From contig NZ_ML769302.1 of assembly GCF_009720385.1 (NCBI RefSeq), positions 1 to 64,000 on the forward strand: 64,000 nt of DNA, written 5' to 3'. Both the position numbers and the translations under genes were made by a program. The notes beneath the pieces are model-generated. The model did not search any database and was not told the origin of the DNA. It saw only the letters and a program-made list of their open reading frames with translations. Shown here one piece after another: positions 5,664 to 45,487 of this stretch (position 1 is its first letter; the number at the start of each line of letters is the position of its first letter). The DNA is from Catellatospora vulcania. Its GTDB lineage: Bacteria > Actinomycetota > Actinomycetes > Mycobacteriales > Micromonosporaceae.

Positions 5664-5728
5664 ATAGACGCTGGCCTATCACATCGAAAAATACGCGATC
5701 GAATTCGATGTGATAGGCCAACGTCTAT
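5664..5728. repeat. Palindromic repeat family A, copy 1
   Basis: Arms of 25 nt (5664-5688 and 5704-5728) pair with a single C/A mismatch around a 15-nt loop that contains CGATCG. The outer arm is the family core TAGACGCTGGCCTAT; the inner arm CACATCGAA is specific to this copy. It lies 55 bp past the prs stop codon. Related copies are at 15387, 24203 and 45423. It is a long hairpin in RNA and may act as the prs terminator, but no U-tract follows in that direction. Confidence 0.85.
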
Positions 5729-5783
5729 CAAAAACGGGAGCTCGGACCCGGCGCGTGCGGCAGGACCGGTCGAAGCGGGCTCG

Positions 5784-6764
5784 TCAGCTGAGGCCGCCGA
5801 AGAGGGTGGTGACGGAGCCGTCGTCGAAGACCTCGCGGATCGCGCGGGCCAGCAGCGGGGCGATGGAGAGCACGGTCAGCTTGTCGAACTGCTTGTCCGA
5901 GCCCAGCGGGAGCGTGTTGGTCACGATGACCTCGCTGATGCGGCTGTTCTTCAGGCGCTCGGTGGCGGGGTCGGAGTGCACGGCGTGCGTGGTGGTCACG
6001 ATGACGTCGGCCGCGCCGTTGTCGAACAGGATGTCCGCGGCCTTGCAGATCGTGCCCGCGGTATCGATCATGTCGTCGACCAGGATGCAGGTGCGCCCGG
6101 CGACCTCGCCGATGACCCGGTTCGCGACGACCTGGTTGGGCTTGAGCGGGTCGCGGGTCTTGTGGATGAACGCCAGCGGGCAGCCGCCGAGCCGGTCGGT
6201 CCAGCGCTCACCGACGCGCACCCGGCCCGAGTCCGGCGACACCACGGTCAGCTCGCGGTGGCCGTAGTTGGCCTGTACGTAGTCGGCCAGGATGTCCATC
6301 GCGAACAGGTGGTCCACCGGGCCGTCGAAGAAGCCCTGGATCTGGGCGGTGTGCAGGTCGACGGTGAGGATGCGGTTCGCGCCGGCGGTCTTGAGCAGGT
6401 CCGCGATGAGGCGGGCGGAGATCGGCTCGCGGCCGCGGTGCTTCTTGTCCTGGCGGGCGTACGGGTAGAACGGCAGCACCACGGTGATGCGCTTGGCCGA
6501 GCCGCGCTTCGCCGCGTCGATCATCAGCAGGGTTTCCATGATCCAGTTGTTCACCGGCTGGGTCATGGACTGGACGATGAAGGCGTCCGAACCGCGGACG
6601 GACTCCTTGTAACGGACAAACGTCTCACCGCTGGCGAAGTCGTACGCCGTCGTCGGGGTCACCCCCACGCCCAGCACCTCGCCGATCTCCTTCGCGAGCT
6701 CGGGGTAGGCCCGGCCCGAGAAGAGCATCAGGTTCTTGCGGTTCTCAGTGACGATGCTGCCCAT
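5784..6764 (-). CDS. prs: Ribose-phosphate pyrophosphokinase (PRPP synthetase)
   Basis: Makes 5-phosphoribosyl-1-pyrophosphate from ribose 5-phosphate and ATP for nucleotide, His and Trp synthesis and, in Actinobacteria, for decaprenyl-phosphoarabinose. The 326-residue length is standard. Visible motifs are the ATP-binding FYPYARQDKKHRGREPIS block, the metal-binding VDLHTAQIQGFF and the PRPP loop LVDDMIDTAGT. It lies downstream of glmU on the same strand, the classical glmU-prs order, although a convergent LuxR-type gene and a bidirectional hairpin lie in between. A long palindrome sits just after its stop. Confidence 0.97.
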   Translation of the reverse strand: MGSIVTENRKNLMLFSGRAYPELAKEIGEVLGVGVTPTTAYDFASGETFVRYKESVRGSDAFIVQSMTQPVNNWIMETLLMIDAAKRGSAKRITVVLPFYPYARQDKKHRGREPISARLIADLLKTAGANRILTVDLHTAQIQGFFDGPVDHLFAMDILADYVQANYGHRELTVVSPDSGRVRVGERWTDRLGGCPLAFIHKTRDPLKPNQVVANRVIGEVAGRTCILVDDMIDTAGTICKAADILFDNGAADVIVTTTHAVHSDPATERLKNSRISEVIVTNTLPLGSDKQFDKLTVLSIAPLLARAIREVFDDGSVTTLFGGLS

Positions 6765-6991
6765 CGGCTTGCCGCCCCTTCACGATGGTCTGCGGTCAGT
6801 ATCACCTTTTCGGTTCATCCTCTCCCGGCGGTTCGCCAACCAGCCAGCAAGGCCGTTCCTGGGTGCGACAGATCACGGACAGATCGCTTGCCCCCGAGTT
6901 CACGCAGGTGACACCAGGGTGCCTTGCCCGGCCCCGACGCCGGGCGCTACCTTCGTAAAGCACAAGTGTCCGTACAGAAAGGCTGCACTCG

Positions 6992-7231
6992 ATGGCCCGG
7001 GACCGGTCCGGAGAACCGACGCTCGTTCAGCGCCGGATCCTCCTGCTGCTCGCCGCAGGTTTCACCGTGCAGACGATCACCAAGCTGGTCTTCCTCAGCG
7101 AGCGCGCAGTGCACGACCACATCGCCAACCTCAAGCAGGCCACCGGCGCCAAGAACCAGTTCTCCCTCGGGGCGGAGGCCGCCAAGCGCGGCTGGCTCGA
7201 AGACGAGGACGAGCAGCCCGGCCGCCGCTGA
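6992..7231 (+). CDS. Small orphan LuxR-type helix-turn-helix protein
   Basis: A 79-residue protein that is little more than a GerE/LuxR-type four-helix DNA-binding domain: VQRRILLLLAAGFTVQTIT forms the first helices and FLSERAVHDHIANLKQATGA corresponds to the scaffold and recognition helices. It has no receiver or ligand-binding domain, so it could act as a constitutive or competitive DNA binder. AGAAAGG precedes the ATG by about 8 nt. It is inserted on the opposite strand between glmU and prs and ends at a bidirectional hairpin. Family resemblance is by eye; the targets are unknown. Confidence 0.7.
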   Translation: MARDRSGEPTLVQRRILLLLAAGFTVQTITKLVFLSERAVHDHIANLKQATGAKNQFSLGAEAAKRGWLEDEDEQPGRR

Positions 7232-7242
7232 ACCGGCCCACG

Positions 7243-7277
7243 AAAAAGGCGCAACCCCCGCAGGGGTCGCGCCTTTT
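7243..7277. terminator. Bidirectional intrinsic terminator
   Basis: A-rich start, stem AAAAGGCGC-A-ACCCC pairing with GGGGT-C-GCGCCTTTT around a short CGC loop (one A/C mismatch), and T-rich end. It has the features of a Rho-independent terminator in both directions and serves the convergent LuxR-type gene and glmU. Confidence 0.85.
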
Positions 7278-7293
7278 CCCATGTCTCGCGGGA

Positions 7294-8724
7294 TCAGCCC
7301 TCTTCAGCGGCCGTCTGCTCGGCCGCCTCGGCCGCCTCGGCCGCCGCGCTGCCCGGACGGGACCGGCGCACCCAGCCCTCGATGTTGCGCTGGTGCGCCC
7401 GCGCCACCGCCAGCGCGCCCGGCGGCACATCCTTGTCGATCACCGAGCCGGCCGCCGTGTACGCCCCGTCGCCGATCCGAACGGGCGCCACGAACGTGGT
7501 GTCGCAGCTCGTCTTCACGTGCGAGCCGATCACGGTGTGGCTCTTCGTGCTGCCGCTGTAGTTCGCGAACAGGTTGCCCGCGCCGATGTTGGTCTGCTCG
7601 CCGATCGTCGCGTCACCGACGTACGTCAGGTGCGGAACCTTGGTGCCCTCGCCCAGCGACGCGTTCTTGATCTCGACGAACGTGCCGACCTTGCCCTTGC
7701 GGCCGATCCGCGCCCCCGGACGCAGGTACGCGTACGGGCCCACGGACACGTTCGGGCCGATCTCGGCCTGCACCGCGTGTGCCCGTACCACCTGGGCCTG
7801 CTCGCCCACGATGGTGTCGATCAGCGTCACGTCCGGGCCCACCACGGCGCCCGTGCCCACGCTGGTCGTCCCGCGCAGCTGCACGTTCGGCTCCAGCAGC
7901 GCGTCGCGCTCCACGGTCACCGTGGCGTCGACCCAGGTCGTGGCCGGGTCGACGATAGTCACGCCGTCGCGCATCAGACCGAGGTTGATCCGGTCACGCA
8001 GCAGCGCCCGCAGCGTCGCCAGCTCGGCCCGGTCGTTGCAGCCCAGCGTCTCGGTCGCGTCGGCCGCCAGGTGCACGCGCACCGGCGAGCCCTGCGTCAC
8101 GAACAGCTCGAAGACGTCGGTGAGGTACTCCTCGCCCTGGTCGTTGTCGGTGGTCAGCTTCGCCAGCGCGGTCCGCAGCGCGGCCGCGTCGAAGGCGTAG
8201 ATGCCCGCGTTGATCTCGCGGATCGCCCGCTGCTCCGGCGTCGCGTCGCGCTCCTCGACGATGCGGACCAGCCCGCCGTCGGCGTCGCGGACCAGCCGGC
8301 CCAGACCGGCCGGGTCCGGCACGGACGCGCCCAGCACGGTCGCCGCAGCCCCCGCCGACTCGTGCGCCTCGACGAGGTCCTGCAGCGTCTGCGCGCGCAG
8401 CAGCGGCACGTCGCCGTTGAGCACGACCACGGTGCCGTCCAGCTCGCCGAGCGCCTCGATCGCGATACGCACCGCGTGGCCGGTGCCGTTCTGCTGCGCC
8501 TGGAGTGCGGTCGCCACGTCGGGCGCGATCCCGGCGAGGTGCTCGGTGACCTGGTCGGCCCGGTTGCCGACGACGGCCAGGGTGCGCTGCGCGCCGAGCG
8601 GGGCGGCGGCGGCGAGCACGTGGCCCACCAGGGAGCGGCCGAGCAGTGGATGCAGCATCTTCGGCAGATCCGACTTCATCCGCTTACCCTCGCCCGCCGC
8701 GAGGACGATCACCGTACGAGTCAC
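7294..8724 (-). CDS. glmU: Bifunctional GlcNAc-1-P uridyltransferase / GlcN-1-P acetyltransferase
   Basis: Acetylates glucosamine 1-phosphate and then uridylates it to UDP-GlcNAc, the precursor of peptidoglycan. The 476 residues show the N-terminal pyrophosphorylase (VIVLAAGEGKRMKSDLPKMLHPLLG, nucleotide-binding loop near residue 10; LNGDVPLLR near 100) and the C-terminal left-handed beta-helix of hexapeptide repeats (GPYAYLRPGARIG, GTFVEIKNASLGEG, HLTYVGDATIGEQTNIGAGN). A GTG start is used. The C-terminal tail is Ala/Glu-rich, as is common in Actinobacteria. tRNA-Gln lies directly upstream on the same strand. Confidence 0.97.
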   Translation of the reverse strand: MTRTVIVLAAGEGKRMKSDLPKMLHPLLGRSLVGHVLAAAAPLGAQRTLAVVGNRADQVTEHLAGIAPDVATALQAQQNGTGHAVRIAIEALGELDGTVVVLNGDVPLLRAQTLQDLVEAHESAGAAATVLGASVPDPAGLGRLVRDADGGLVRIVEERDATPEQRAIREINAGIYAFDAAALRTALAKLTTDNDQGEEYLTDVFELFVTQGSPVRVHLAADATETLGCNDRAELATLRALLRDRINLGLMRDGVTIVDPATTWVDATVTVERDALLEPNVQLRGTTSVGTGAVVGPDVTLIDTIVGEQAQVVRAHAVQAEIGPNVSVGPYAYLRPGARIGRKGKVGTFVEIKNASLGEGTKVPHLTYVGDATIGEQTNIGAGNLFANYSGSTKSHTVIGSHVKTSCDTTFVAPVRIGDGAYTAAGSVIDKDVPPGALAVARAHQRNIEGWVRRSRPGSAAAEAAEAAEQTAAEEG

Positions 8725-8760
8725 GAGCTGCCTAACGTCGATCCGAACACATAACTAAAG

Positions 8761-8832
8761 CTCGGCTGCCAGGGCTCGAACCTGGAAAGCGCGCTCCAAA
8801 GGCGCGAGTGTTGCCAATTACACCACAGCCGA
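8761..8832 (-). tRNA. tRNA-Gln (anticodon UUG)
   Basis: A 72-nt cloverleaf: acceptor TCGGCTG/CAGCCGA, D stem GTGT/ACAC with an AATTGG loop, anticodon stem CGCGC/GCGCG with loop CTTTGGA (anticodon TTG), and T stem CCAGG/CCTGG with TTCGAGC. The discriminator base is G, as expected for tRNA-Gln. The CCA end is not encoded. It lies just upstream of glmU. Confidence 0.93.
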
Positions 8833-8856
8833 TCGGGTCGCCTGACAGCTTAGCGC

Positions 8857-9558
8857 CTACCCCGCCGCTGCCGGTCGCCCACTTCTGGCCAGCCCGTTCA
8901 TCACACCTTCGATGAGCCAGTAGAGCTCACGGCCTCGTGGAACGGTGACCACGAGGCAGCCTCGGTACTCGACGCCCTGGTTGTGGCGGCCGGTCGACGG
9001 CGTATGCCGCTTCAGCGTCACGGAGCCGACGGCGCTTTCGGTCAGGTGCAACTGCTGCGCCCACCACGCCTGAACGACCGCCACCTCCGCCGACTCGTGA
9101 ATGCTCAGCCGGTACCGGAGATCATGCCGGGATCGGCCGGTCGACTCGACGAACCTCAGGAACAGCTCCACCAGTACCAGGTCGCTGTTGGTGAAGGTGA
9201 CCTGCCAGTCCGTCGGCCGCCATGGTTTGTGCTTGGCACCTTCGCTCCAGTAGAGCACTGCGCCCACCAGTAGCAACTCGCGCTCGGTGAGCCGCCCGAC
9301 CTGCACAGCCGTGGTGTCGACTACCTCGAGGTGGCGCTCGTCGCGCTGCCGGCGGTGCGCTGACCATTGCGCGTCCGTCATGCGTTTCGAGTGCTCGCGC
9401 CGTCGTGCGACGCGTTCGTCCGTGTCGGGCAGAGGCACGTGACGCACCCAGGTGAACGCCGTCGACCGTGCCACGCCCAGCCGCGCCGCGATCTCCGGGA
9501 CGGTCGAACCGGCCTCGCGCAGCGCTACCGCCTGCGCGCGCAGTTCCGCCTTGGCCAT
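8857..9558 (-). CDS. HTH protein with LAGLIDADG-like region, function unknown
   Basis: A 233-residue protein. The N-terminus (about 5-35) reads as a resolvase/transposase-style helix-turn-helix (LREAGSTVPEIAARLGVARS). The middle (about 95-150) has GAVLYWSEGAKHK followed by TFTNSDLVLVELFLRFVES, which resembles the first helix and following segment of LAGLIDADG homing endonucleases, although the acidic catalytic residue is Glu in WSEG. No intein or intron context is present. A TAAAAT hexamer lies 6 nt before the ATG, suggesting leaderless translation. It borders tRNA-Gln. I do not recognise a named family; the endonuclease resemblance is by eye. Confidence 0.7.
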   Translation of the reverse strand: MAKAELRAQAVALREAGSTVPEIAARLGVARSTAFTWVRHVPLPDTDERVARRREHSKRMTDAQWSAHRRQRDERHLEVVDTTAVQVGRLTERELLLVGAVLYWSEGAKHKPWRPTDWQVTFTNSDLVLVELFLRFVESTGRSRHDLRYRLSIHESAEVAVVQAWWAQQLHLTESAVGSVTLKRHTPSTGRHNQGVEYRGCLVVTVPRGRELYWLIEGVMNGLARSGRPAAAG

Positions 9559-9624
9559 GCGGTGATTTTAGGACAGGCGTACGACGCTCCCGGAGGAATT
9601 TCTCAACAGGCGGCTCTGTCAAAC

Positions 9625-9651
9625 TACGGTCCCGTAGGTTACGGTGTCGTA
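9625..9651. promoter_or_regulatory. Tandem TACGNNNNCGTA operator before the desaturase gene
   Basis: Two copies of the dyad TACGNNNNCGTA at 9625-9636 and 9640-9651, start to start 15 bp apart, within a near-direct repeat ACGGTNNCGTAGGT. This is the size and symmetry expected for a TetR-family dimer pair. The TetR-type gene two genes along the strand is the obvious candidate to bind it. The regulator is inferred. Confidence 0.6.
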
Positions 9652-9694
9652 GGTAGTACAAACCATGCCTTCCACCCAGCTCCAGCGAGGTGCC

Positions 9695-10684
9695 ATGACC
9701 ACGACAGCCATCGACACGCCTACCGGCACCGCGGCGACTGCACGCGGACAGAAGCCACTGACCGAGGGGGCCCAGTCCAAGGGCACCTTGATCGGGCTCT
9801 GGGCCTTCGTGGTCCTGCCGTTCCTGGCGCTGTTCGCTGTGGTCCCGGTCGCCTGGGGCGGCTGGCTGAACGTCACCGACGTGGTCATCTTCGCGGTGAT
9901 GTACGTGGTGACGGGGCTGGGCATCACCGTCGGCTACCACCGCTACCTGACGCACAGCTCGTTCAAGGCCACGCGCTGGCTGCGCGTGACGCTGGCGGTC
10001 TCCGGCGCGATGGCCGTGCAGGGCTCGCCGACCCAGTGGGTCGCCGACCACCGCCGTCACCACCAGTACTCCGACCTTGAGGACGACCCGCACTCGCCGT
10101 GGCGTTTCGGCAACTCCTTCAAGGGCCTGACCAAGGGCATGTTCCACGCCCACGTGGGCTGGCTGTTCGCCCGCGAGCTGTCCAACCGGGTCCGCTTCGC
10201 ACCGGACCTGCTGGCCGACAAGGACATCGCCAAGGTCGACAAGCTGTTCGGCCTGCTGTCGCTGACCACCGCGTTCGCGCCGGCCGTCGTCGGCGGTCTG
10301 GTGACCTGGTCGTGGCAGGGCGCGCTGACCGCGTTCTTCTGGGCCGGCCTGGTCCGCATCGGCCTGCTGCACCACGTCACCTGGGCGATCAACTCGGTCT
10401 GCCACGTGTACGGCGAGCGCCCGTTCGAGATGCGCGAGGGCGACAAGGCCTCCAACTTCTGGCCACTGGCGATCCTGTCGTTCGGCGAGAGCTGGCACAA
10501 CCTGCACCACTCGGACCCGACCAGCGCCCGGCACGGCGTGCTGCGCGGCCAGATCGACATCTCGGCCCGCGTGATCTGGTTCTTCGAGAAGTTCGGCTGG
10601 GCGACGAACGTCAAGTGGCCCAAGGCCGACCGGCTCAAGGCCAAGATGATCGACCGCGACGCCGAGCCCAAGCTGGCCCGGTGA
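9695..10684 (+). CDS. Acyl-CoA delta-9-type fatty acid desaturase
   Basis: Membrane di-iron enzyme that introduces a cis double bond into a fatty acyl chain, using O2 and reductant. All three histidine boxes are present: HRYLTH near residue 85, HRRHH near 120 and HNLHH near 260, separated by paired hydrophobic segments, in about 329 residues. I favour the ATG at 9695 with GAGG upstream; an ATG ten codons earlier is possible. A tandem TACGNNNNCGTA site precedes it and a TetR-family gene follows, consistent with lipid-responsive control as known for other actinobacterial desaturases. Confidence 0.93.
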   Translation: MTTTAIDTPTGTAATARGQKPLTEGAQSKGTLIGLWAFVVLPFLALFAVVPVAWGGWLNVTDVVIFAVMYVVTGLGITVGYHRYLTHSSFKATRWLRVTLAVSGAMAVQGSPTQWVADHRRHHQYSDLEDDPHSPWRFGNSFKGLTKGMFHAHVGWLFARELSNRVRFAPDLLADKDIAKVDKLFGLLSLTTAFAPAVVGGLVTWSWQGALTAFFWAGLVRIGLLHHVTWAINSVCHVYGERPFEMREGDKASNFWPLAILSFGESWHNLHHSDPTSARHGVLRGQIDISARVIWFFEKFGWATNVKWPKADRLKAKMIDRDAEPKLAR

Positions 10685-10713
10685 CCGTCGACACGACGGG
10701 CACACCATCGCCG

Positions 10714-10738
10714 CCCTCATCCTCCTGGCAGGATGGGG
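10714..10738 (+). promoter_or_regulatory. Hairpin covering the TetR gene's ribosome-binding site
   Basis: CCC-T-CATCCT pairs with AGGATGGGG around the loop CCTGGC. The 3' arm is the purine-rich segment immediately before the GTG at 10741, so the stem would hide that ribosome-binding site, or simply end the desaturase transcript. Confidence 0.45.
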
Positions 10739-10740
10739 GC

Positions 10741-11421
10741 GTGGCAGACGACTCCCGTGACGCCCGGCCGGCCGGACGGCAGCCTGCACCGCCGAAGACC
10801 GGCTCACGGGTACGCATGAGCTTCTCTCAGCGCCGTGAGCAGCTGATCGCCGTGGGGCGGCAGCTTTTCGCCGAGCGCGGTTTCGACGCGACCTCGATCG
10901 AGGAGATCGCCTCCCGTGCCAAGGTTTCCAAGCCCGTGGTGTACGAGCACTTCGGCGGTAAGGAAGGCCTGTATGCCGTCGTGGTGGACCGCGAGGTCAC
11001 CTCGCTGCTGAACCGGGTCACCTCCGCCCTGACCGCGGGGCATCCACGCGAACTGCTGGAGCAGGCGGCGCTGGCGCTGCTGGACTACATCGAGGAGGAG
11101 ACCAACGGCTTCCGCGTGCTGGTGCGCGAGTCGCCGGTGATGTCCTCGTCGGGCAACTTCTCCTCGGTCCTCAACGACGTCGCGCACCAGGTCGAGCACA
11201 TCCTCGGGGCCGAGTTCAAGACGCGGGGGTACGACCCGAAGCTGGCCGAGCTGTACTCGCAGGCGCTGGTGGGCATGGTGGCGCTGACCGGCCGCTGGTG
11301 GCTGGAGGTGCGCAAGCCGCGCAAGGAGACGGTGGCCGCGCACCTGGTCAACCTGTGCTGGAACGGTCTGGCCCAATTGGAGCCCAAGCCCGCCCTGCTG
11401 ACCCGCAAGGGCGTCAAGTAG
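10741..11421 (+). CDS. TetR/AcrR-family transcriptional regulator
   Basis: A 226-residue one-component repressor. After a 25-residue basic, Pro-rich leader, the DNA-binding domain runs from about 30 to 75: REQLIAVGRQLFAERGFDA, then TSIEEIASRAKVSKPVVYEHFGGKEGLYA, the typical TetR helix-turn-helix. The C-terminal helical domain would bind the ligand, plausibly an acyl-CoA given the desaturase 57 bp upstream. The GTG is preceded by GGATGGGGG; an ATG at 10816 would shorten the protein but keep the DNA-binding domain. Regulation of the desaturase is inferred from adjacency and from the dyads at 9625-9651. Confidence 0.9.
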   Translation: MADDSRDARPAGRQPAPPKTGSRVRMSFSQRREQLIAVGRQLFAERGFDATSIEEIASRAKVSKPVVYEHFGGKEGLYAVVVDREVTSLLNRVTSALTAGHPRELLEQAALALLDYIEEETNGFRVLVRESPVMSSSGNFSSVLNDVAHQVEHILGAEFKTRGYDPKLAELYSQALVGMVALTGRWWLEVRKPRKETVAAHLVNLCWNGLAQLEPKPALLTRKGVK

Positions 11422-11424
11422 CCG

Positions 11425-11919
11425 CTACTTGTTGGCGTGCGGCTTGACGGCGAACTTGTCGCCGGGGCGGGTGCTGTGGCGCAGCACCTCTTCGGCGATG
11501 GACTCGGCCGGTGTGCCGACCTTGCCGTACATCCCGGCGATCAGCATGATCGTGCCGAGGATGAACGAGACCACGCAGGTGGAGATCTCGAAGTTGAGCT
11601 TGTTCGCCGGGGTCTGCATGACCGTCAACATGATGAGGCCGGCGAGCATGAAGACCGCGCCGCCGAAGATGTTGATGAAGTGGTCGATGTTGCGGCCGAT
11701 GATGGCGCCGCCGAGCACGATCGCGCCGACGATGACGGACAGCCACGCGAACGCGGGGTTGGTCTTCAGCCCGAGTGCCTCGATGTCGGCGCGGCTGAAG
11801 AACGGTTCACCGGCGGTGCGGATGGCGCCGACGATGCCGAACACCAGCAGGTACGCACCCGACAGTCCCGCCAGGAAGCGCCACTGGGGCCTTAGTCGGT
11901 GATTGACCGGAAGATGCAT
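11425..11919 (-). CDS. DUF4383 membrane protein (downstream paralogue)
   Basis: A 164-residue protein with four predicted membrane segments (about 14-34, 52-75, 82-103, 112-134) and the DUF4383 hallmarks NHRLRPQWRFLAGLSG, GLKTNPAFAW and GRNIDHFINIFGG. Its function is unknown. It is about half identical by eye to the next gene upstream, so the two are a tandem duplication. The start is the ATG at 11919, directly before MHLPVNH, matching the MPVNH start of its paralogue. Confidence 0.85.
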   Translation of the reverse strand: MHLPVNHRLRPQWRFLAGLSGAYLLVFGIVGAIRTAGEPFFSRADIEALGLKTNPAFAWLSVIVGAIVLGGAIIGRNIDHFINIFGGAVFMLAGLIMLTVMQTPANKLNFEISTCVVSFILGTIMLIAGMYGKVGTPAESIAEEVLRHSTRPGDKFAVKPHANK

Positions 11920-11928
11920 GACCTCAGT

Positions 11929-11955
11929 GTCCCGCCGGGAGTGTCCCGGCGGGAC
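11929..11955 (-). terminator. 12-bp perfect hairpin between the DUF4383 paralogues
   Basis: Arms GTCCCGCCGGGA (11929-11940) and TCCCGGCGGGAC (11944-11955) are exact complements with a 3-nt loop. The very stable GC stem lies after the upstream DUF4383 stop and 9 bp before the start codon of the downstream copy. It has no U-tract. Confidence 0.65.
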
Positions 11956-11969
11956 CGTTTCACGGCAAA

Positions 11970-12431
11970 TCAGGCCACGCCGACGCGGTGCTTCTCTTCC
12001 GCGGCGGCCTTGGCGGCCGGGCCGACCTTGACGTACATGCCGGCGGTGAACAGGACCGACCCGATGAGGTACGAGACGATGCAGGTCGCCATGGTGAAGT
12101 TGAGCACATTCGAGTCGGTGTGCATCAGCGCCAGCATCGCGGTGCCCACGAGCATGAAGCCGGCGCCGACCCACATGTCGACGAAGCGGTCCAGGTTGCG
12201 GCCCACCAGCGTGGCCAGCAGCACGACGGCCCCGGCGGCGATGCTCGCGTACGAGAAGGCGGGGTTGGTCTTCAGCCCGAGCGCGCTGGCCTCGCCCTGG
12301 TTGAGCAACGGCTCGCCCTGGCTGTCGAGGTAGCCGAGCACACCGAACGCCAGCACGAACAGCCCGGCGAGCAGGGCCAGCCCGCGGTAGAGCGGGCGAA
12401 GGGAGTGGTTGACGGGCATGTGGGAAGCCAT
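11970..12431 (-). CDS. DUF4383 membrane protein (upstream paralogue)
   Basis: A 153-residue, four-helix membrane protein with the same NHSLRPLYRG, GLKTNPAFSY and GRNLDRFVDMW blocks as its downstream neighbour. GGAG lies 7 nt before the ATG. DUF4383 proteins are common in Actinobacteria and have no assigned role. Hairpins at 11929-11955 and 12455-12495 bracket this gene, so it may be transcribed on its own. Confidence 0.85.
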   Translation of the reverse strand: MASHMPVNHSLRPLYRGLALLAGLFVLAFGVLGYLDSQGEPLLNQGEASALGLKTNPAFSYASIAAGAVVLLATLVGRNLDRFVDMWVGAGFMLVGTAMLALMHTDSNVLNFTMATCIVSYLIGSVLFTAGMYVKVGPAAKAAAEEKHRVGVA

Positions 12432-12454
12432 GTCGCAGCTCCGGCGGGGACGAG

Positions 12455-12495
12455 GGGTCAGGGGAAGCGTGAGGTTATCAGGCCTCCCCTGACCC
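12455..12495 (-). terminator. Terminator after the ABC-F gene
   Basis: Arms GGGTCAGGGGA (12455-12465) and TCCCCTGACCC (12485-12495) are exact complements, with a 19-nt loop. It follows the ABC-F stop codon and precedes the DUF4383 gene. Confidence 0.65.
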
Positions 12496-12515
12496 GCTTT
12501 CCGCCAGTGCGGGCG

Positions 12516-14315
12516 CTACTCGGAGATCAGCTCCGCGAGGTTGAGCCACTCGTCTTCGAGCAGCCCGCGCTCGTCCTGCAGCGCCTTGAGGCTCGCGTCC
12601 AGTTCGGCGATCTTCGCGAAGTCGGTGGCGTGCTCGGCCATCTGCGCGTGCACCTTCGCGACCCGCTGGTCGAGCTTGTCGATCTGCCGCTCGACCCGCG
12701 ACACCTCTTTCTTCGCCGCGCGTACCTCGGCCGCGCTCGGCCCGCCGGTGCGTTCGGCCTTCAGCTCCTTGACCGTCGCCGACGAGGCCGCGACCCGGGC
12801 CGCATCGTGGTCGACGCGCTGCAGGTACTCGTCGACGCCGCCGGGCAGGTGCCGGATCTTGCCGTCGCCGAGCAGGCCGTACACCTTGTCGCAGACGCGT
12901 TCGACCAGGTAGCGGTCGTGGCTGGCGACGACCATCGTGCCGGGCCAGGTGTCGAGCAGGTCCTCCAGCGAGGCCAGGGTGTCGGTGTCCAGGTCGTTGG
13001 TCGGCTCGTCGAGGATCAGCACGTTCGGCTCACCGGCCAGCAGGCGCAGCAGCTGCAGCCGCCGGCGCTCGCCACCGGACAGGTCGGACACCGGGGTCCA
13101 CACCCGGCGGTCGGTGAAGCCGAAGATCTCGGCCAGTTGCGACGCGGACAGCTCCCGGTCGCCGAGCTTGACCCGCCGCGCCACCTGCTCGACGGCCTCC
13201 AGCAGCCGCAGCTCGCCGGGCAGCTCCGCGAGCTCCTGGGACAGGAACGCGGGCCGCACCGTCTGGCCGGCACGGAAACCGGTCGCCTCGGTGACCCTCG
13301 CCAGCAGGCGCAGCAGCGTCGACTTGCCCGCGCCGTTCGCGCCGAGCAGCGCGATCCGGTCGCCGGGGCCGACGTGCCAGGTGACGTCGTCCAGGATCAG
13401 CTTCGGCCCGGCGTACAGGGTGACGTTCTCCAGGTCGTACACCTGGCGGCCGAGCCGGGCGGTGGCCAGTTTGGCCAGGGTGACCTGGTCGCGGGCCTCG
13501 GGCACGTCGGCGATGAGCGCGTTGGCGGCGTCGATGCGGAACTTGGGCTTCGAGGTGCGGGCCGGCGGGCCGCGGCGCAGCCAGGCGATCTCCTTGCGGA
13601 GCAGGTTCTGGCGGCGGGACTCGGTCACCGCGGCGACCCGCTCCCGCTCGGCGCGGGCCAGGATCCACGCGGCGAAGCCGCCGTCGTACGCCCGCACCTG
13701 GAGGTCGGCGACCTCCCAGATGCGGTTGCAGACCTCGTCGAGGAACCACCGGTCGTGGGTGACCACGATCAGCGCTCCGCGCAGGCTCTCGTTGAGGTAG
13801 CGGGCCAGCCAGTTGACGCCCGCGATGTCGAGGTGGTTGGTGGGCTCGTCGAGGATCAGCAGGTCGGTCGGGCGCACCAGCAGCGCGGCCAGCGCGATGC
13901 GCCGCCGCTCGCCGCCGGACATCGTGCCGACCGGCTGGTCCAGCCCGAGGCCCGGCATGCCGAGGCCGTCGAGGATGTGGCGGACGCCGGAGTCACCGGC
14001 CCACTCGTGCTCGGCCTCGAACGCGGCGGGCAGCCAGGCGTCGCCCAGCACCACGTCGCGCACGGTCAGGTCCGGGGCCAGGTCCAGCGCCTGTGGCAGC
14101 GCGGACACGCGCAGGTCGCGGCGGTGCGTGACGCGCCCGGTATCGGGGTCCTCGGCCTTGGTCAGCATCCGCAGCAGGGTCGACTTGCCCGCGCCGTTGA
14201 GGCCGACCACGCCGATCCGGTCCGCGTCGTCCAGCCCTAGGGAGACGTCGGTGAGCAGGGGGCCGGTCGGGCCGTAACCCTTGCTCACCCGGTCGAGATT
14301 GATGATGTTGGCCAT
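12516..14315 (-). CDS. ABC-F family ATPase, Uup-like, with C-terminal coiled coil
   Basis: A soluble protein of about 599 residues with two ABC ATPase domains and no membrane segments. Domain 1 has GLNGAGKST (near 38), signature SGGERRR and LILDEPTNHLD; domain 2 has GANGAGKST (near 325), SGGERRR and LILDEPTNDLD. The linker is followed by a C-terminal helical hairpin (about 520-599, SRVERQIDKLDQRVAKVHAQ) as in Uup, which acts at the ribosome or on branched DNA. The ATG at 14315 is 8 nt past the ispE stop, so expression is likely coupled to it. A role in antibiotic resistance is possible but not indicated. Confidence 0.9.
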   Translation of the reverse strand: MANIINLDRVSKGYGPTGPLLTDVSLGLDDADRIGVVGLNGAGKSTLLRMLTKAEDPDTGRVTHRRDLRVSALPQALDLAPDLTVRDVVLGDAWLPAAFEAEHEWAGDSGVRHILDGLGMPGLGLDQPVGTMSGGERRRIALAALLVRPTDLLILDEPTNHLDIAGVNWLARYLNESLRGALIVVTHDRWFLDEVCNRIWEVADLQVRAYDGGFAAWILARAERERVAAVTESRRQNLLRKEIAWLRRGPPARTSKPKFRIDAANALIADVPEARDQVTLAKLATARLGRQVYDLENVTLYAGPKLILDDVTWHVGPGDRIALLGANGAGKSTLLRLLARVTEATGFRAGQTVRPAFLSQELAELPGELRLLEAVEQVARRVKLGDRELSASQLAEIFGFTDRRVWTPVSDLSGGERRRLQLLRLLAGEPNVLILDEPTNDLDTDTLASLEDLLDTWPGTMVVASHDRYLVERVCDKVYGLLGDGKIRHLPGGVDEYLQRVDHDAARVAASSATVKELKAERTGGPSAAEVRAAKKEVSRVERQIDKLDQRVAKVHAQMAEHATDFAKIAELDASLKALQDERGLLEDEWLNLAELISE

Positions 14316-14323
14316 GATGCTGG

Positions 14324-15280
14324 TCAGCCTATCCGGGCGCCGTGCACTGCTCCGTACGCCTGCTGCACCCCGCGGCACAGCCCCGACTCGCGCAGCGCTG
14401 CCGCGAGGTCGGCCCCGTGGGCCTCGTCACGGGCCAGGAAGACACAGGTCGGGCCGCTGCCGGAGACCAGGCTGGCCAGCGCGCCGGCCTTGTCGCCCAC
14501 GTCGAGCGTGTCGGCCAGCGCGGGGCGCAGCGACAGCGCCGCCGCCTGCAGGTCGTTGCCGAGGACCGCGCCGAGCACCGCCGGGTCCCGCTGGCGCAGC
14601 GCGCTGAGCAGGTCGTCGCTGCTGTTCAGCGGGGCGGGTGCGGTGCCCGCGGCACGCATGCGGTCCAGCTCGCCGTACACCTGCGGGGTGGACAGGCCGC
14701 CGTCGGCGAACGCCACCACCCAGTGCCACCGGTTGGCGCGGGCCAGCACCGGGCTGACCGCCTCGCCGTGGCCGGTGCCCAGCGCGGTGCCGCCGTACAG
14801 CAGGAAGGGCACGTCGGAGCCGAGCGTCGCGGCGATCCGGGCCAGCTCGTCACGGCCCAGGCCGGTGCCCCACAGGGCGTCCAGCGCGACCAGGGTCGCG
14901 GCGGCGTCGGCGGAACCGCCGGCCAGGCCGCCCGCGAGCGGGATCGTCTTGCGCAGGTGCAGCCGGGCGTGGGCGGGCACCTTGGCGGTCGCGGCCAGCG
15001 CGTGCGCGGCGCGGATGATCAGGTTGCTGTCGTCGAGCTCCAGCTCACCGACGCCCTCGCCCTGCATGGTCAGGCTCAGCGTGTCCCCGGACCGCGCGGT
15101 GACCTCGTCGTAGACGGAGATGGCGTGATACACGGTGTGCAGCTCGTGGTAGCCGTCGGACCGCAGCGGGCCGACCCCGAGGTGCAGGTTGATCTTCGCG
15201 GGCACCCTCACCCGGACCGGCCCTGACGAGGCTCCCGCCAGGTCATCGTCGTCGTCGCCGAGCGTCCATGCCTCTGTCAC
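14324..15280 (-). CDS. ispE: 4-diphosphocytidyl-2-C-methyl-D-erythritol kinase
   Basis: GHMP-family kinase that phosphorylates the 2-OH of CDP-methylerythritol in the MEP pathway to isoprenoids. The 318 residues include VRVRVPAKINLHLGVG near 25, with the catalytic Lys region, and the ATP-binding loop PLAGGLAGGSADAAATL near 115; the C-terminal LVSGSGPTCV motif is also present. It uses GTG, and TACGCT ends 7 nt before it, which suggests a leaderless mRNA. ksgA lies upstream and the ABC-F gene downstream, the standard actinobacterial ksgA-ispE-abcF order. Confidence 0.95.
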   Translation of the reverse strand: MTEAWTLGDDDDDLAGASSGPVRVRVPAKINLHLGVGPLRSDGYHELHTVYHAISVYDEVTARSGDTLSLTMQGEGVGELELDDSNLIIRAAHALAATAKVPAHARLHLRKTIPLAGGLAGGSADAAATLVALDALWGTGLGRDELARIAATLGSDVPFLLYGGTALGTGHGEAVSPVLARANRWHWVVAFADGGLSTPQVYGELDRMRAAGTAPAPLNSSDDLLSALRQRDPAVLGAVLGNDLQAAALSLRPALADTLDVGDKAGALASLVSGSGPTCVFLARDEAHGADLAAALRESGLCRGVQQAYGAVHGARIG

Positions 15281-15386
15281 GCCGACCAGCGTACTGGCCC
15301 CACCCCGATCACCCGCCGCCGCAGCACCCCGCTCCCACGTGCCCTGCCCACGGCGATCCGACGCGGCCTGCCGACCCCGCCTTATG

Positions 15387-15449
15387 TAGACGTTGGCCTA
15401 TCTGGATGACAATTCTGCGATCGAACTCATCCAGATAGGCCAACGTCTA
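15387..15449. repeat. Palindromic repeat family A, copy 2
   Basis: Arms 15387-15409 and 15427-15449 are exact 23-nt complements around a 17-nt loop containing GCGATCGAAC. The outer core is TAGACGTTGGCCTAT, the inner part CTGGATGA. It lies 16 bp past the ksgA stop codon and about 100 bp upstream of ispE. Confidence 0.88.
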
Positions 15450-15465
15450 TGAAGAACGTTGGCGG

Positions 15466-16323
15466 TCAGCCCTTCGCGGCGGCCAGGGCGGCGAAGGCGT
15501 GCACGTCGAGCTGTTCGCCGCGGGCCGACGGGTCGATGCCGGCCTTGCGCAGCAGCGCCTCGGCCTCAGGGGGGCTGCCCGCCCAGCCGGCCAGCGCGGC
15601 CCGCAACGTCTTGCGGCGCTGCGCGAACGCGGCGTCGACCACCGCGAACACCGCCTCCCGCGCGACGTCGTCGCGGGGCGGCTCCCGGCGAGTGAAGGAC
15701 ACCAGGCCGGAGTCCACGTTGGGCATCGGCCAGAACACCGCGGGCGGCACCTTGCCGGCCTGGCGGGACGAGGCATACCAGGCGAGTTTCACCGACGGGA
15801 TGCCGTAGATCTTGCTGCCGGGCGCGGCGGTGAGCCGGTCGGCGACCTCCTTCTGCACCATGACCAGGCCGTGCCTGATCCCGGGCAGCTCCGCCAGCAG
15901 GTGCAGCACCACCGGCACGGCGACGTTGTACGGCAGGTTCGCCACCAGCGCCGTGGGCGGCGGGTCGAACTCGGCCGCGGTGACGCGCATGGCGTCGCCA
16001 TTGTGGATGGTGAGCCGGTCGACGAGCCCGGGGGCGCGCTCGGCGGCGGTCGCGCCGAGTGCCGCGGCCAGCGGCGGGTCGATCTCCACCGCGTGCACGT
16101 GGGCCGCGTACGGGAGCAGGCCCAGGGTCAGCGAGCCCAGGCCGGGCCCGACCTCGACGGCGACGTCGGCGGGGTCGAGCTCGGCGGCGGCCACGATGCG
16201 CCGGATGGTGTTGGGGTCGTGCAGGAAGTTCTGCCCGAGCTTCTTGGTCGGCGCGACACCGAGCCGCGCGGCCAGCTCCCGGATCTCCGCCGGGCCGAGC
16301 AGTCTTGCCTGTTCAACGGTCAC
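15466..16323 (-). CDS. ksgA: 16S rRNA dimethyladenosine transferase
   Basis: SAM-dependent enzyme that dimethylates two adjacent adenines in the 3' hairpin of 16S rRNA late in 30S assembly; its loss gives kasugamycin resistance. The 285 residues show [12 protein letters not shown] near 28, the SAM site [11 protein letters not shown] near 58 and the catalytic NLPYN near 130. The GTG start lies 6 nt after TAGCCT, a leaderless arrangement. It follows the cytochrome P450 gene by only 9 bp, but the -10-like hexamer there suggests its own promoter. Confidence 0.96.
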
Positions 16324-16332
16324 GCCATCAGG

Positions 16333-17664: not shown

Positions 17665-17809
17665 ATCGACGAGGTTAGACGTGCCCGGCGACACTCACCA
17701 GAGGCCGCCGACCCGGCCGGGCGACCTGCGCCGACGGGTGGCGGAGCGGTCCCGCTCATGAGGTGGTCCCGGCGCCCGGTCGGCTCGTTCTCCGCCCACC
17801 TTCGGCCCG

Positions 17810-17838
17810 TTGACGGATGATCTTCAACTGCCTAGGTT
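17810..17838 (+). promoter_or_regulatory. Sigma-70-type promoter of the DUF805 gene
   Basis: TTGACG (17810-17815), a 17-bp spacer and TAGGTT (17833-17838). Transcription would start near 17845, leaving a short leader with GGGAGG before the GTG at 17873. Confidence 0.6.
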
Positions 17839-17872
17839 CAGCGAACTTGACCTTCACGGGAGGAAACCGCAA

Positions 17873-18226
17873 GTGGGCTCATACCTTGATGTGCTGAAGA
17901 AATACGCGACTTTCGGCGGGCGCGCCCGTCGCAAGGAGTTCTGGATGTTCACGCTCATCCAGTTCGTCATCGTCACCGCGCTCTTCGCCCTGTACCTGAC
18001 CACCGAGGTCGATGCGTTCTACTACCTGTACCTCGCCTACTTCTTCGGCACCATCATCCCGACGCTCGCGGTGAGCTGGCGGCGGCTGCACGACACCGGC
18101 CGCTCGGGCGGCTGGTACTTCATCGGCGCTGTGCCGCTCATCGGCGGGTTCTGGCTGCTCGCCCTGCTGGCCGGCGCGGGCGAGCCGAAGGCGAACCTCT
18201 ACGGCCCGGACCCCAAGGCCGCCTGA
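17873..18226 (+). CDS. DUF805 membrane protein
   Basis: A 117-residue inner-membrane protein with three to four hydrophobic segments. The DUF805 features are visible: an N-terminal YLDVLKKYATFGGRARRKEFWMF segment, then PTLAVSWRRLHDTGRSGGW between helices, and a C-terminal NLYGPDP. No function is assigned to this very widespread family. The GTG at 17873 is chosen because GGGAGG lies 9 nt upstream; the frame is open for 21 more codons but without a site. Confidence 0.9.
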   Translation: MGSYLDVLKKYATFGGRARRKEFWMFTLIQFVIVTALFALYLTTEVDAFYYLYLAYFFGTIIPTLAVSWRRLHDTGRSGGWYFIGAVPLIGGFWLLALLAGAGEPKANLYGPDPKAA

Positions 18227-18230
18227 CCGC

Positions 18231-18281
18231 ACAGCAGAACGCCCTGCCCCCGGACCACCGGGGAGCAGGGCGTTCTGCTGT
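18231..18281. terminator. Bidirectional terminator, DUF805 / tatD
   Basis: A 17-bp perfect outer stem (18231-18247 with 18265-18281; ACAGCAGAACGCCCTGC) continues into a CCCCGG/CCGGGG inner stem after a one-base bulge, with loop ACCA. It lies between two convergent genes. Confidence 0.88.
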
Positions 18282-18293
18282 GTCGGGCGAGGC

Positions 18294-19148: not shown

Positions 19149-19290
19149 CCGCCCATGATCCCACCCCGGCCGACCGACACAGCGGTCGGTGAGCGCACGG
19201 TCCCGCTGCGAGGTCGATCACCCCGCGCGCGGCCTTCTGTTCAGTCCTCGTTCATCTGCGGGGCACGCGCGGGCATTAGCGTCAAAACCC

Positions 19291-22295: not shown

Positions 22296-22407
22296 AACGA
22301 CCCAGCGTAGTGAAGGCGCTCAGTGGCCTATGCACCGGTTGTCACCTCGTACGACACGCCCGGCAAATCCCCTTGTCGAGTGTCCGACTGGAGTGAAATG
22401 ACCAGGT

Positions 22408-24174: not shown

Positions 24175-24202
24175 CCGACTGCACGGCCCCACCGCGCTTT
24201 CA

Positions 24203-27422: not shown

Positions 27423-27483
27423 GATCGCTGTTTCTGGTCAGGACCTGCGGCCCCGCCACACCCGCTGACCTGAAACAGCGATC
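27423..27483. terminator. 19-bp inverted repeat downstream of glpR
   Basis: Arms 27423-27441 and 27465-27483 (GATCGCTGTTTC with GAAACAGCGATC at the outer ends) pair with one T/T mismatch around a 23-nt loop. It lies 24 bp after the glpR stop and could be its terminator. It is unrelated in sequence to families A and B, and I found no second copy in the window. Confidence 0.6.
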
Positions 27484-42299: not shown

Positions 42300-42304
42300 G
42301 TGAG

Positions 42305-44163: not shown

Positions 44164-44183
44164 AAGTGAAGGATTTTAGCTGG

Positions 44184-44717
44184 TCATACGTTGCGCAGCG
44201 CGTCCAGCAGGTCGGCCAGGAAACGCTGCTCGGCCGGGCTGCGGGTGACCCCGCCGATGCCCAGCAGGCCGCCGGAGCGAGCCGCGCCGCAGACCTGGTC
44301 CGCGATCGCCGCCAGCCAGCGGCGGTACGCCTGCCCGTCGGCCGGGGTGGCCCGGGAGTCGAGCACGATCGCCGCGGCCCGGCAGCTCACCAGCACCTCG
44401 GTGATCGCGGCGTGCGGGTCGCGGAACTGCTCCGCGGCGGGCGGATCGGGGTCCGCCTCGGCGTAGATCGCGCCGACGATGGCTTTCACCAGCTCGGAGT
44501 CCTCGTCGGCTCCGGCGGCGATGGCGTTGATGCCGGCCAGGCCCTCGTCGACCGTACGGCGGTCGCTGTCGGGTTCGGCGGAGGTGGCGGCGATCATGAC
44601 ACGGGCCGGGAGCCGGGTCAGCAGCTCCCACTCGTGCGGTTCGAAGGTGAGGGGAGCGATCTCCCGCCGGTACAGCTGGCGCGAGATCAGGTGATCCGCT
44701 GCGGAATTACTCGGCAT
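44184..44717 (-). CDS. Hypothetical protein, 177 aa
   Basis: Not recognised. It is Ala-rich and mainly helical, with LTFEPHEWELLTRLPARVMIAATSAEPD near the N-terminus and a C-terminal GGVTRSPAEQRFLADLLDALRNV. It has no membrane segment or signal peptide. AGGAGG lies 5 nt before the ATG, giving good support for translation. It ends 20 bp before the SpoU-type gene start and might be co-transcribed with it. Confidence 0.75.
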   Translation of the reverse strand: MPSNSAADHLISRQLYRREIAPLTFEPHEWELLTRLPARVMIAATSAEPDSDRRTVDEGLAGINAIAAGADEDSELVKAIVGAIYAEADPDPPAAEQFRDPHAAITEVLVSCRAAAIVLDSRATPADGQAYRRWLAAIADQVCGAARSGGLLGIGGVTRSPAEQRFLADLLDALRNV

Positions 44718-44820
44718 GGCGACCTCCTGCCGTCAGCATATGCCGCGACCGCGGACGCTTGCCGCGAAGCGTGCCAATCACCCGCAAGGGCGGCGACCGT
44801 TGTCTGTGATGTAGTTCTCG

Positions 44821-44854
44821 GCACGGCCTATGTACTCGCCGGTAACGGCCGTGC
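44821..44854. promoter_or_regulatory. Inverted repeat upstream of the MaoC gene
   Basis: GCACGGCC (44821-44828) and GGCCGTGC (44847-44854) are exact complements 18 bp apart, with TATGTACTC between them. It lies 80 bp before the MaoC start and could be an operator around the -10 region. No regulator is assigned. Confidence 0.4.
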
Positions 44855-44934
44855 AGAATCCTTTTCACAAGCGCGGGCGGCGGGTGCCGGGGAGGGCCCC
44901 GCCGTTCGCTGCATCCAGGGGCGGGAGACGGACA

Positions 44935-45399
44935 ATGCAGTTCGGGCGCTACTTCGAGGAGTTCGAGGTCGGGGCGATCTACAAGCACTGGCCCGGCAAG
45001 ACGGTCACCGAGTACGACGACCACCTCTTCTGCCTGCTGACGATGAACCACCACCCGCTGCACCTGGACGCCCACTACGCGGCGACGCAGACCGAGTTCA
45101 AGCGCAACGTGGTGGTCGGCAACTACATCTACTCGCTGCTGCTGGGCATGTCCGTGCCCGACGTCAGCGGCAAGGCCATCGCCAACCTCGAGGTCGAGAG
45201 CCTGCGCCACGTCGCGCCGACCTTCCACGGCGACACCATTTACGGCGAGACCACCGTGCTGGACAAGCGCGAGTCCGGGTCCAAGCCCGATCGCGGCGTG
45301 GTCAGCGTCGAGACCCGCGGCTACAACCAGGACGGCACCCTGGTCTGCATCTTCAAGCGCAAGGTCATGGTCCCCAAGCGCCCCGACGCCGCCGAGTAG
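44935..45399 (+). CDS. MaoC-family hydratase, probable mesaconyl-CoA type
   Basis: A 154-residue hotdog-fold dehydratase. FEVGAIYKHWPGKTVTEYDDHLFCLLTMNHHPLH contains the catalytic Asp/His pair of MaoC-type hydratases. The sequence strongly resembles the MaoC gene that sits in the crotonyl-CoA carboxylase/reductase cluster of Streptomyces, in the ethylmalonyl-CoA pathway. The acyl-CoA dehydrogenase at 50012 and the CoA-ester lyase at 53955 are the other members of that cluster, here spread over 10 kb. GGGAGACGG precedes the ATG. Confidence 0.88.
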   Translation: MQFGRYFEEFEVGAIYKHWPGKTVTEYDDHLFCLLTMNHHPLHLDAHYAATQTEFKRNVVVGNYIYSLLLGMSVPDVSGKAIANLEVESLRHVAPTFHGDTIYGETTVLDKRESGSKPDRGVVSVETRGYNQDGTLVCIFKRKVMVPKRPDAAE

Positions 45400-45422
45400 G
45401 GCCGCCCACGGCCCCGTTTTCC

Positions 45423-45487
45423 ATAGACGTTGGCCTATTACGTCGAGTATTTGTAGATCAAACTCGATGTAATAGGCCAACGTCCAT
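45423..45487. repeat. Palindromic repeat family A, copy 4
   Basis: Arms 45423-45448 and 45462-45487 (26 nt) pair with one A/C mismatch and one G-U-type pair around a 13-nt loop with AGATCAA. The core is TAGACGTTGGCCTAT; the inner arm TACGTCGAGT is specific to this copy. It lies 23 bp past the MaoC stop and 27 bp before the convergent stop of the DCC gene. Confidence 0.85.

Follow-up and report, generated by a model that had tools for sequence, protein, structure and literature searches.

The four long palindromes noted in the window (the whole 64,000-nucleotide stretch of Catellatospora vulcania contig NZ_ML769302.1 analyzed here) belong to a repeat family, designated family A, which stands roughly an even chance of being a non-autonomous, REPIN-like DNA hairpin that lacks a RAYT and is copied as DNA among the gene-end slots of Catellatospora. 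The original prediction described a four-copy family and held that restriction to these copies would count against mobility; a covariance model (R2) instead gives 73 intact copies in this genome (G000) together with one fragment. The REP-like habit proposed for the palindromes is supported by these 73 copies, their extragenic location, their limitation to the genus among the genomes searched, a REPIN-like architecture and unequal copy numbers; the MITE-like habit proposed alongside it found no support (see below). The open-access listings searched, in part among top matches only, showed no earlier description of family A for either the genus or the Micromonosporaceae.

Architecture and distribution of family A

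Each of the four palindromes was recovered at its noted site and, as had been claimed, folds into one long hairpin even though the inner arms differ. Two further palindrome families of nearly constant length, B and C, were identified in the genus, and family B is represented twice in the window. The features are as follows:

5664 to 5728, plus strand (loop orientation plus): family A copy 1, flanked by tandem genes and located 55 bp beyond the stop codon of a PRPP-synthetase-like gene (5784 to 6764, minus strand)
15387 to 15449, plus strand: family A copy 2, flanked by tandem genes and located 16 bp beyond the stop codon of an rRNA-dimethylase-like gene (15466 to 16323, minus strand)
24203 to 24267, plus strand: family A copy 3, in which both arms have the GACAC/GTGTC core variant; the flanking genes are convergent, and the right-hand one encodes an RsmI-like methylase
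45423 to 45487, plus strand: family A copy 4, flanked by convergent genes
54940 to 55000, no strand assigned: family B palindrome with GCAACTCTTAAAGAC... arms, 61 bp
60897 to 60967, no strand assigned: second family B palindrome, core 60902 to 60962, also 61 bp

The four family A copies have hairpin z-scores of -9.8 to -12.0 relative to shuffles (DNA parameters), and all eight matches to the arm pattern (at most 3 mismatches) in the window lie within them, against 1.19 expected by chance and a maximum of 5 in 100 shuffles. The GATC loop is present in all four and, again as first described, two core bases of copy 3 depart from the usual core on both arms; the orthologue of this copy in species G010 has an identical 33-nt interior but the usual core. 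An Rfam scan of the window at gathering scores returned two tRNAs only and no match to family A.

In the unit of approximately 65 bp, near-invariant outer arms enclose a 33-nt interior, which is variable in sequence, nearly constant in length and conserved in its pairing. In a sample of 228 copies from 11 genomes (excluding loci that the parsing assigned to no genome), the core was 59 nt long in 211, the pattern having permitted 55-67 nt and up to 5 substitutions, so that the anchoring of some 65-67-nt cores may be wrong. The 14-nt arm was listed 91 times without mismatch in G000, always inside the 73 elements, and no larger element with family A ends was seen among these matches. The 28-bit G000 fragment and one 20-bit hit (L190) were excluded from element counts.

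Pairing within a copy exceeded that of shuffles, also when shuffling was confined within genomes: pair 16 was complementary in a fraction of 0.90 compared to 0.69 in shuffles and pair 19 in 0.94 compared to 0.62, and 44 two-sided compensated cells were counted compared to 16.2. Departures from pairing among 87 tandem copies were G·U in 32 cases and A·C in 30 (19:15 with one tandem copy per site); this equality suggests that pairing is not selected in RNA, and maintenance at the RNA level was rejected on this ground. Two of the five measures of covariation were weak, viz., the number of pairs with two-sided change (10 vs. 7.0, reached in 7 of 500 shuffles) and the number of further pair types (19 vs. 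18.5, 256 of 500).

The interiors of family B likewise covary within each copy. With family C, pairing of the interior was not above shuffles, the arms being nearly fixed and the length constant. These last features, shared with family A, would suit a double-stranded protein-binding site in which two inverted half-sites are held at fixed spacing for chromosome organization or as a roadblock, but the per-copy covariation of the A and B interiors is not needed by independent half-sites and two species, G002 and G007, are nearly devoid of family A. This explanation is considered very improbable.

Family A was found in all 11 Catellatospora species examined, with 7-8 places at the low end and at least 102 copies at the high end; G002 and G007 retain only 8 and 7 places, respectively, mostly low-scoring. 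It was detected in 0 of 50 genomes outside the genus and in 0 of 396 sampled genomes of the order, likewise outside the genus (counts reading 150 in the cross-genome screen are saturated by the scoring cap). Carriage by phages or plasmids was discounted, copy 3 being unmatched in phage and plasmid collections; viral contigs likewise held no match to a slightly shortened family A pattern.

Position behind genes

The claims that all four copies lie within 55 bp of a stop codon (55, 16, 28, and 23 bp for copies 1-4) and that two of them separate convergent genes were borne out, with gene context assigned from gene calls by codon usage. The same position is adopted genome-wide: 72 of the 73 copies in G000 lie behind a gene, 46 of these between convergent genes, and the median distance to the stop is 38 nt (349 gene ends of 228 copies). 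Relative to the gene upstream, the loop faces one way more often than the other (50:18, or 32:12 with one copy per site). This bias hints at a role linked to transcription, which would not be predicted from an account at the DNA level alone.

These positions and the loop bias, together with the C-rich composition of the 3' UTRs (C 0.51, G 0.27), would be expected if the palindromes were selected at the RNA level, as transcription terminators or hairpins at 3' ends, with a termination or RNA-binding factor recognizing the fixed arms. As the original prediction had argued, a simple terminator finds no support: the consensus outside the palindrome over 228 copies, CCCCGCTTTTC...GAAAAGCGGGG, has no U-tract following the hairpin, and G·U pairs are not preferred. 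In this consensus, a T-run precedes the hairpin and an A-run follows it for transcripts arriving from either side, and a terminator scan of positions 5400-24800 found no terminator-like site at copies 1-3. The near loss of family A from G002 and G007 and the absence of any element at some orthologous sites (see below) also speak against this reading, which is regarded as unlikely.

The flanking CCCCGCTTTT motif was evaluated as an outer stem and rejected; flanks from position 4 outward pair no more than shuffles, positions 4, 5, 7, 8, and 11 pair less, and position 1 does pair above them (0.71 vs. 0.53). At tandem copies the motif scored 6.30 of 10 on the gene side and 5.79 on the far side (p 0.07; background 3.08), and its presence on both sides gives it the appearance of a feature of the site.

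Insertion marks and known repeat systems

A RAYT-type transposase was sought with the Y1 profile PF01797, which matched 5 of 14 known genomes in a control. It had no match in G000, and hence a Y1/RAYT enzyme was set aside as driver, nor did it match in G002, G005, G008, or G009, though the profile might miss a highly divergent enzyme; each of the remaining six genomes yielded 1-3 matches. At eight of the nine such loci (approximately 1.5 kb per side), no arm of family A, B, or C was found at up to 2 mismatches. Direct repeats of 3-8 bp abutting the element were not in excess among the 228 copies, and a MITE generating target duplications of at least 3 bp was thus rejected; direct repeats of 2 bp bordered 125 copies compared to 105 in shuffles, and a TA duplication of this size would still fit, TA being self-complementary and as such also compatible with the palindrome itself. 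Neither a transposition intermediate nor an enzyme that copies the hairpin was found.

REPINs are REP doublets that form hairpins; they are described as non-autonomous and as associated with RAYT transposases (Bertels and Rainey, 2011, PMC3116915). Family A resembles them in its near-invariant inverted ends, a less conserved spacer that keeps both its length and its capacity to form a hairpin, compensatory changes, extragenic location and repetition within a genome; like REPs and REPINs, it is a high-copy extragenic palindrome. REPIN ends overlap REP sequences, whereas the family A arm GACGTTGGCCTAT has no stem of its own of 5 bp or more. Its CGTC is paired within the long stem and, on reading of the sequence, a REP hairpin with an unpaired GTAG/CGTC tag at each end is absent. 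Family A also differs from REPINs in that no Y1 was found in G000 and in having gene-end sites common to species with differing contents.

In CGTC-tagged REPs, the stem measures 8-9 bp and the loop 4-5 nt, and the CGTC at one end is unpaired (Di Nocera et al., 2013, PMC3733652). They, like family A, are dispersed palindromes found mostly behind genes and apparently without a dedicated transposase; in family A, by contrast, CGTC is present at both ends and is paired within a stem of approximately 25 bp. RAYT-linked REPs are abundant where the cognate RAYT is present (Nunvar et al., 2010, PMC2817692). Family A shares with these the character of abundant extragenic palindromes differing between species, but its abundance does not follow Y1 matches. 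The inverted DNA uptake sequences of the Neisseriaceae are comparable in their fixed short arms, their arrangement as inverted pairs behind genes and their genus dialects; family A differs in its variable, covarying interior of constant length. These uptake sequences act as terminators. A REPIN architecture with dozens of copies, differing contents and no detectable RAYT raises the question of what else copies hairpins.

Orthologous slots and their contents

The original prediction held that finding the same hairpins at the same positions in all relatives, with no sign of movement, would argue against it; many positions proved to be shared, but their contents mostly were not. Family A occupies the site of copy 1 in 9 of 11 species, that of copy 2 in 6 of 11, that of copy 3 in 7 of 11 (G003, not among the seven, has a truncated arm) and that of copy 4 in 6 of the 10 species covering it. 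At the site of copy 2, the other five species have no element and hardly any gap, and three species lack any element at site 4, observations that disfavor a terminator. Other inverted repeats are present at site 3 in G002, G005, and G007; by inspection, 5 of the 6 cases at sites 1 and 3 without intact family A carry one, which would suit a terminator, as would the repeats at 54.9 kb described below. No clean empty orthologous site with intact flanks was encountered among the sites compared.

A G000 element was present at the orthologous place of sampled elements in 19/26 cases for G010, 15/31 for G001, 9/9 for G003, 16/19 for G004, 15/23 for G006, 3/4 for G002, 2/3 for G007, and 5/9 for G005, and in few for the outer clade (G008, 5/15; G009, 3/16); these counts include the window region, which was chosen because G000 has elements there. 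With so many sites shared, recent insertion is not proven. Over 110 orthologous pairs, the outer arms differed at 1.78 positions compared to 1.74 in random pairs and the interiors at 11.7 compared to 12.7 of 33 (p 0.09); the four flanking bases per side were closer (1.73 vs. 2.38). In some comparisons, orthologous interiors were somewhat closer than random pairs (G000-G010, 7.8 vs. 10.1; G000-G004, 10.8 vs. 14.0), and turnover is thus not complete. The loop orientation was flipped relative to G000 in 2/14 orthologues of G001, 6/15 of G004, 4/12 of G006, and 4/17 of G010.

Species also differ in which interior types predominate. The CTGGATGA type accounts for 53/132 half-arms in G000, 30/50 in G010, and 17/60 in G001 but for 0/36 in G004 and at most 1/42 in G006, where the leading types are CACATCGA and CTCATCGA; the samples of G003, G004, G005, G008, G009, and G010 are mostly best-scoring copies, which biases the types seen. 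Of such a best-scoring sample from G008, 17/30 were of CTCATCGA/CACATCGA types, and the four copies of this species in the window region are of another kind, AGGA- or AGAGGAC-like. Where two G000 copies have near-identical interiors, their flanks are no more similar than those of other pairs and their outer arms differ just as often, identity stopping at the border of the element. Interiors and outer arms are unlinked in both G000 and G010; G001 (5 pairs) showed the opposite.

On the REPIN-like reading, the slots would lie just behind genes and many would be inherited along with them, the palindrome in a slot being repeatedly overwritten, as DNA, by copies from elsewhere in the genome. Contents would probably be overwritten in place rather than whole elements lost and regained; the hairpin may be copied in single-stranded form or through a short conversion tract within it, and the factor responsible would be one other than RAYT. 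The resident hairpin may in turn act as a two-way transcript end or barrier.

It is also conceivable, if doubtful, that the palindromes are vertically inherited with no dispersal enzyme and are homogenized within species by general recombination, through ectopic conversion from copy to copy and templated correction of one arm by the other at replication. The many sites common to closer species, the unlinked interiors and arms, the flips in loop orientation and the lack of a Y1 match in G000 all agree with this. Homology of 13-25 bp is nevertheless short for RecA-type conversion, the span in copy number is wide, and different palindromes occupy one slot across species, which requires gain or replacement and not conversion only.

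Under copying of REPIN-like hairpins among slots, shared slots with unshared contents would make the rate, direction and unit of copying measurable across the 11 species and any strains sequenced later, and would allow what a gene-end slot does to be told apart from how its resident repeat came to be there. A broader process is suggested only tentatively, namely RAYT-independent, in-place rewriting of DNA hairpins in persistent gene-end slots, for which unrelated palindrome families of set length would compete and in which arms and interior would be exchanged separately. The slot at 54.9 kb holds family B in G000 and family A in G010, and an inverted repeat was recognized there by inspection in all eight readable species.

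Family A palindromes in Catellatospora

Family A is a palindrome of about 65 bp found behind genes, in which near-constant outer arms enclose a 33-nt interior that is variable yet paired (consensus nCATAGACGTTGGCCTATCTGGATGAnAATTCGnnGATCGAACTCATCCAGATAGGCCAACGTCTATGA). The four palindromes of the original prediction were recovered in the window, each forming a long hairpin far above chance:

5664-5728, family A copy at site 1
15387-15449, family A copy at site 2
24203-24267, family A copy at site 3 (copy 3)
45423-45487, family A copy at site 4

With one mismatch allowed, the arm pattern matched the 8.83-Mb genome of C. vulcania (G000) 131 times, versus 20 matches for a reversed control pattern. 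A search with a covariance model built on 21 oriented copies upheld the family itself and not its supposed size of four copies; 73 intact copies and one fragment were counted (146-147 model matches on both strands). By uncurated gene calls based on the codon usage of six window genes, 46 G000 copies lie between convergent, 26 between tandem, and one between divergent genes; for the 228 copies collected across 11 genomes, the respective values are 128, 92, and 7, with one context undetermined. Measured at 349 gene ends, the distance to the stop codon has a median of 38 nt and is at most 60 nt in 268 cases. Two G000 copies lie about 600 bp apart (L207; G000:C8:10887 and 11496), and the distant species G008 (L272) and G005 (L283) have counterparts of both.

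All 11 Catellatospora genomes examined (G000 and ten others, G001-G010) contain family A, with 1 to 102 copies per genome by the strict pattern. Model matches on both strands numbered 76 in G003, 120 in G005, 142 in G010, at least 150 in each of G001, G004, G006, G008, and G009, and 11 in both G002 and G007. At a looser cut-off, G002 had 14 matches at eight places and G007 13 at seven, mostly low-scoring; in these two genomes sites 2 and 4 are without an element and sites 1 and 3 hold other hairpins. Outside the genus, family A was found in none of 50 genomes, and a relaxed pattern in none of 396 genomes of the order. For the window's metG, the closest named genome among the matches returned was Catellatospora sp. 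KI3 (88%), the rest being at most 81%.

The GAC...GTC core spans 59 nt in 211 of the 228 copies. Among the 21 model copies, two-sided changes occupied 44 cells versus 16.2 in shuffles; weaker measures of covariation gave 10 pairs versus 7.0, and 19 pair types versus 18.5. When the 59-nt copies were pooled, pairs 14-19 were formed in 0.83-0.94 of them, versus 0.54-0.73 with partners shuffled within genomes; pairing at positions 24-29 fell below that of shuffles owing to the asymmetry of the loop, whose small stem is offset. The motif CCCCGCTTTTC in the flanks points inward on either side of the element and shows no pairing above chance; it appears not to belong to the copied unit and perhaps reflects a site preference.

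Shared sites and differing contents

The region orthologous to the window, 32 to 60 kb in each of the ten relatives, held together with the window 35 family A elements, the window's four included. Of 11 species, nine carry family A at site 1 and seven at site 3, where G003 additionally has a truncated arm; at site 4, which 10 species cover, six carry it. Site 2 is occupied in exactly the six closer species, the other five having a very short gap; this fits a gain in the common ancestor of the six and, equally, losses. Scored on at least one matched flank, in a sample over-representing the window region, elements with a G000 orthologue numbered 19/26 in G010, 15/31 in G001, 9/9 in G003, 16/19 in G004, 15/23 in G006, 3/4 in G002, 2/3 in G007, 5/15 in G008, 5/9 in G005, and 3/16 in G009.

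Elements at one site differ widely, by up to 26 of 33 interior positions between species; identical orthologous interiors occur between G003 and G010 at site 1 and between G000 and G010 at site 3. Among the six closer species, 110 orthologous pairs differed from random pairs neither much in the outer arms (1.78 versus 1.74 differences) nor in the interiors (11.7 versus 12.7, p 0.09), and the four adjacent bases per side were closer than in random pairs (1.73 versus 2.38, p 4e-7, the pairs being non-independent). Orthologous interiors were closer than random for G000-G010 (7.8 versus 10.1) and G000-G004 (10.8 versus 14.0), and not for G000-G006 (15.8 versus 15.6) or G001-G010 (15.6 versus 13.1).

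Genomes also favour different interior types, sampled completely in G000, mostly in contig order in G001 and G006, and mostly from best-scoring copies elsewhere. Type CTGGATGA made up 53/132 half-arms in G000, 30/50 in G010, 17/60 in G001, and 0/36 in G004; CACATCGA and CTCATCGA jointly accounted for 31/42 in G006, 18/36 in G004, and 17/30 in G008; and CTAGAGGA was the top type in G005 (5/18) and G009 (4/30). The four window-region copies of G008 have an interior of another kind than its CACATCGA/CTCATCGA sample.

Copies with near-identical interiors (at most one difference) had flanks at the baseline of dissimilar pairs, past the first three bases in nine G000 pairs and likewise in seven G010 pairs; G001 had just two such pairs. 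At two or fewer interior differences, outer-arm differences were 2.38 versus 2.04 in other pairs in G000 (32 pairs) and, in agreement, 2.00 versus 1.67 in G010 (15 pairs), but 0.20 versus 1.11 in G001 (5 pairs). Interior and arms are therefore unlinked in behaviour in two of the three genomes. Copy 3 and its G010 orthologue, with the same interior and both arms changed jointly, are a clean case of the reverse: the interior is kept and the arms altered. Across orthologues, base pairs of the outer arms had changed on both sides 54 times and on one side 88 times.

Mobility and the level of pairing

The Y1 tyrosine transposases of profile PF01797 include RAYT, the enzyme linked with REPs. The RAYT-type transposase that the original prediction proposed to look for did not appear: PF01797 had no match in G000, nor in G002, G005, G008, or G009. 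The six remaining Catellatospora genomes had one to three matches each; family A copy number does not track these across the 11 genomes, and no arms of family A, or of two further palindrome families, B and C, were found at the eight Y1 loci examined. The 91 perfect family A arms among those listed for G000 all lie inside the 73 elements, and thus no larger element with family A ends was seen. No target duplication of 3-8 bp was found at family A; at 2 bp, 125 of 228 copies had abutting repeats versus 105 in shuffles, but TA, being self-complementary, may equally belong to the palindrome.

Bertels and Rainey (PMC3116915) describe REPINs, REP doublets forming hairpins, as elements whose spacer is conserved in length and in its ability to form a hairpin, not in its sequence, with compensatory changes common. 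The architecture of family A agrees with that description; family A differs from REPINs in being without REP end hairpins and tags, and without a detected RAYT in G000. It is therefore termed a REPIN-like element without detectable RAYT, and the best reading is that such an element is kept and rewritten in gene-end slots. The rewriting agent may be a dedicated enzyme or general recombination.

If pairing were selected in RNA, G·U should be favoured. When 87 tandem copies were read in the orientation of their upstream gene, one-sided departures comprised 32 G·U versus 30 A·C (p 0.90, interval 0.39-0.65) beside 52 other mismatches; one copy per site gave 19 versus 15. Against the DNA-level reading of this parity stands the loop orientation relative to the upstream gene, which was sense in 18 and antisense in 50 orientable tandem copies of all species (p 1.3e-4); counting each site once gave 12 and 32 (p 0.004).

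Families B and C and a shared gene-end slot

Family B, whose arms are constant and whose core spans 58-59 nt, occurs twice in the window:

54940-55000, family B copy
60897-60967, family B copy

The core is 59 nt in 19/19 G000 copies and 58-59 nt in the other copies listed, and its interior pairing exceeds that of shuffles (0/500 reached the observed value). Among 37 genomes searched, copies numbered 19 in G000, 24 in G001, 14 in G003, 4 in G006, and one each in G004 and G010, with none in the other five Catellatospora genomes or in 26 outside genomes. Family C (arms TTTCGGGGAAASTGC) has 154 copies in G009, 148 in G008, 33 in G000, and 4 each in G001 and G006, occurring for example in the G008 and G009 regions syntenic to the window, and none in 26 genomes outside the genus. 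In G002 its length is 52 nt in 43/44 copies, and the near-constant 22-nt interior pairs no better than shuffles (334/500 reached the observed value).

At the slot near 54.9 kb (window 54908-55028), compared in eight readable species with G001, G005, and G006 left out, family A lies in G010 and family B in G000 and G003; by inspection, G002, G004, G007, G008, and G009 hold other long inverted repeats. Depending on the species, this gene-end slot contains an element of family A or B, or a long inverted repeat belonging to one of three further kinds. Two more inverted repeats in the window lie at 18230-18282 and 27423-27483, the latter just past a tRNA-Ala; several relatives have similar sequence at the position orthologous to this second repeat.
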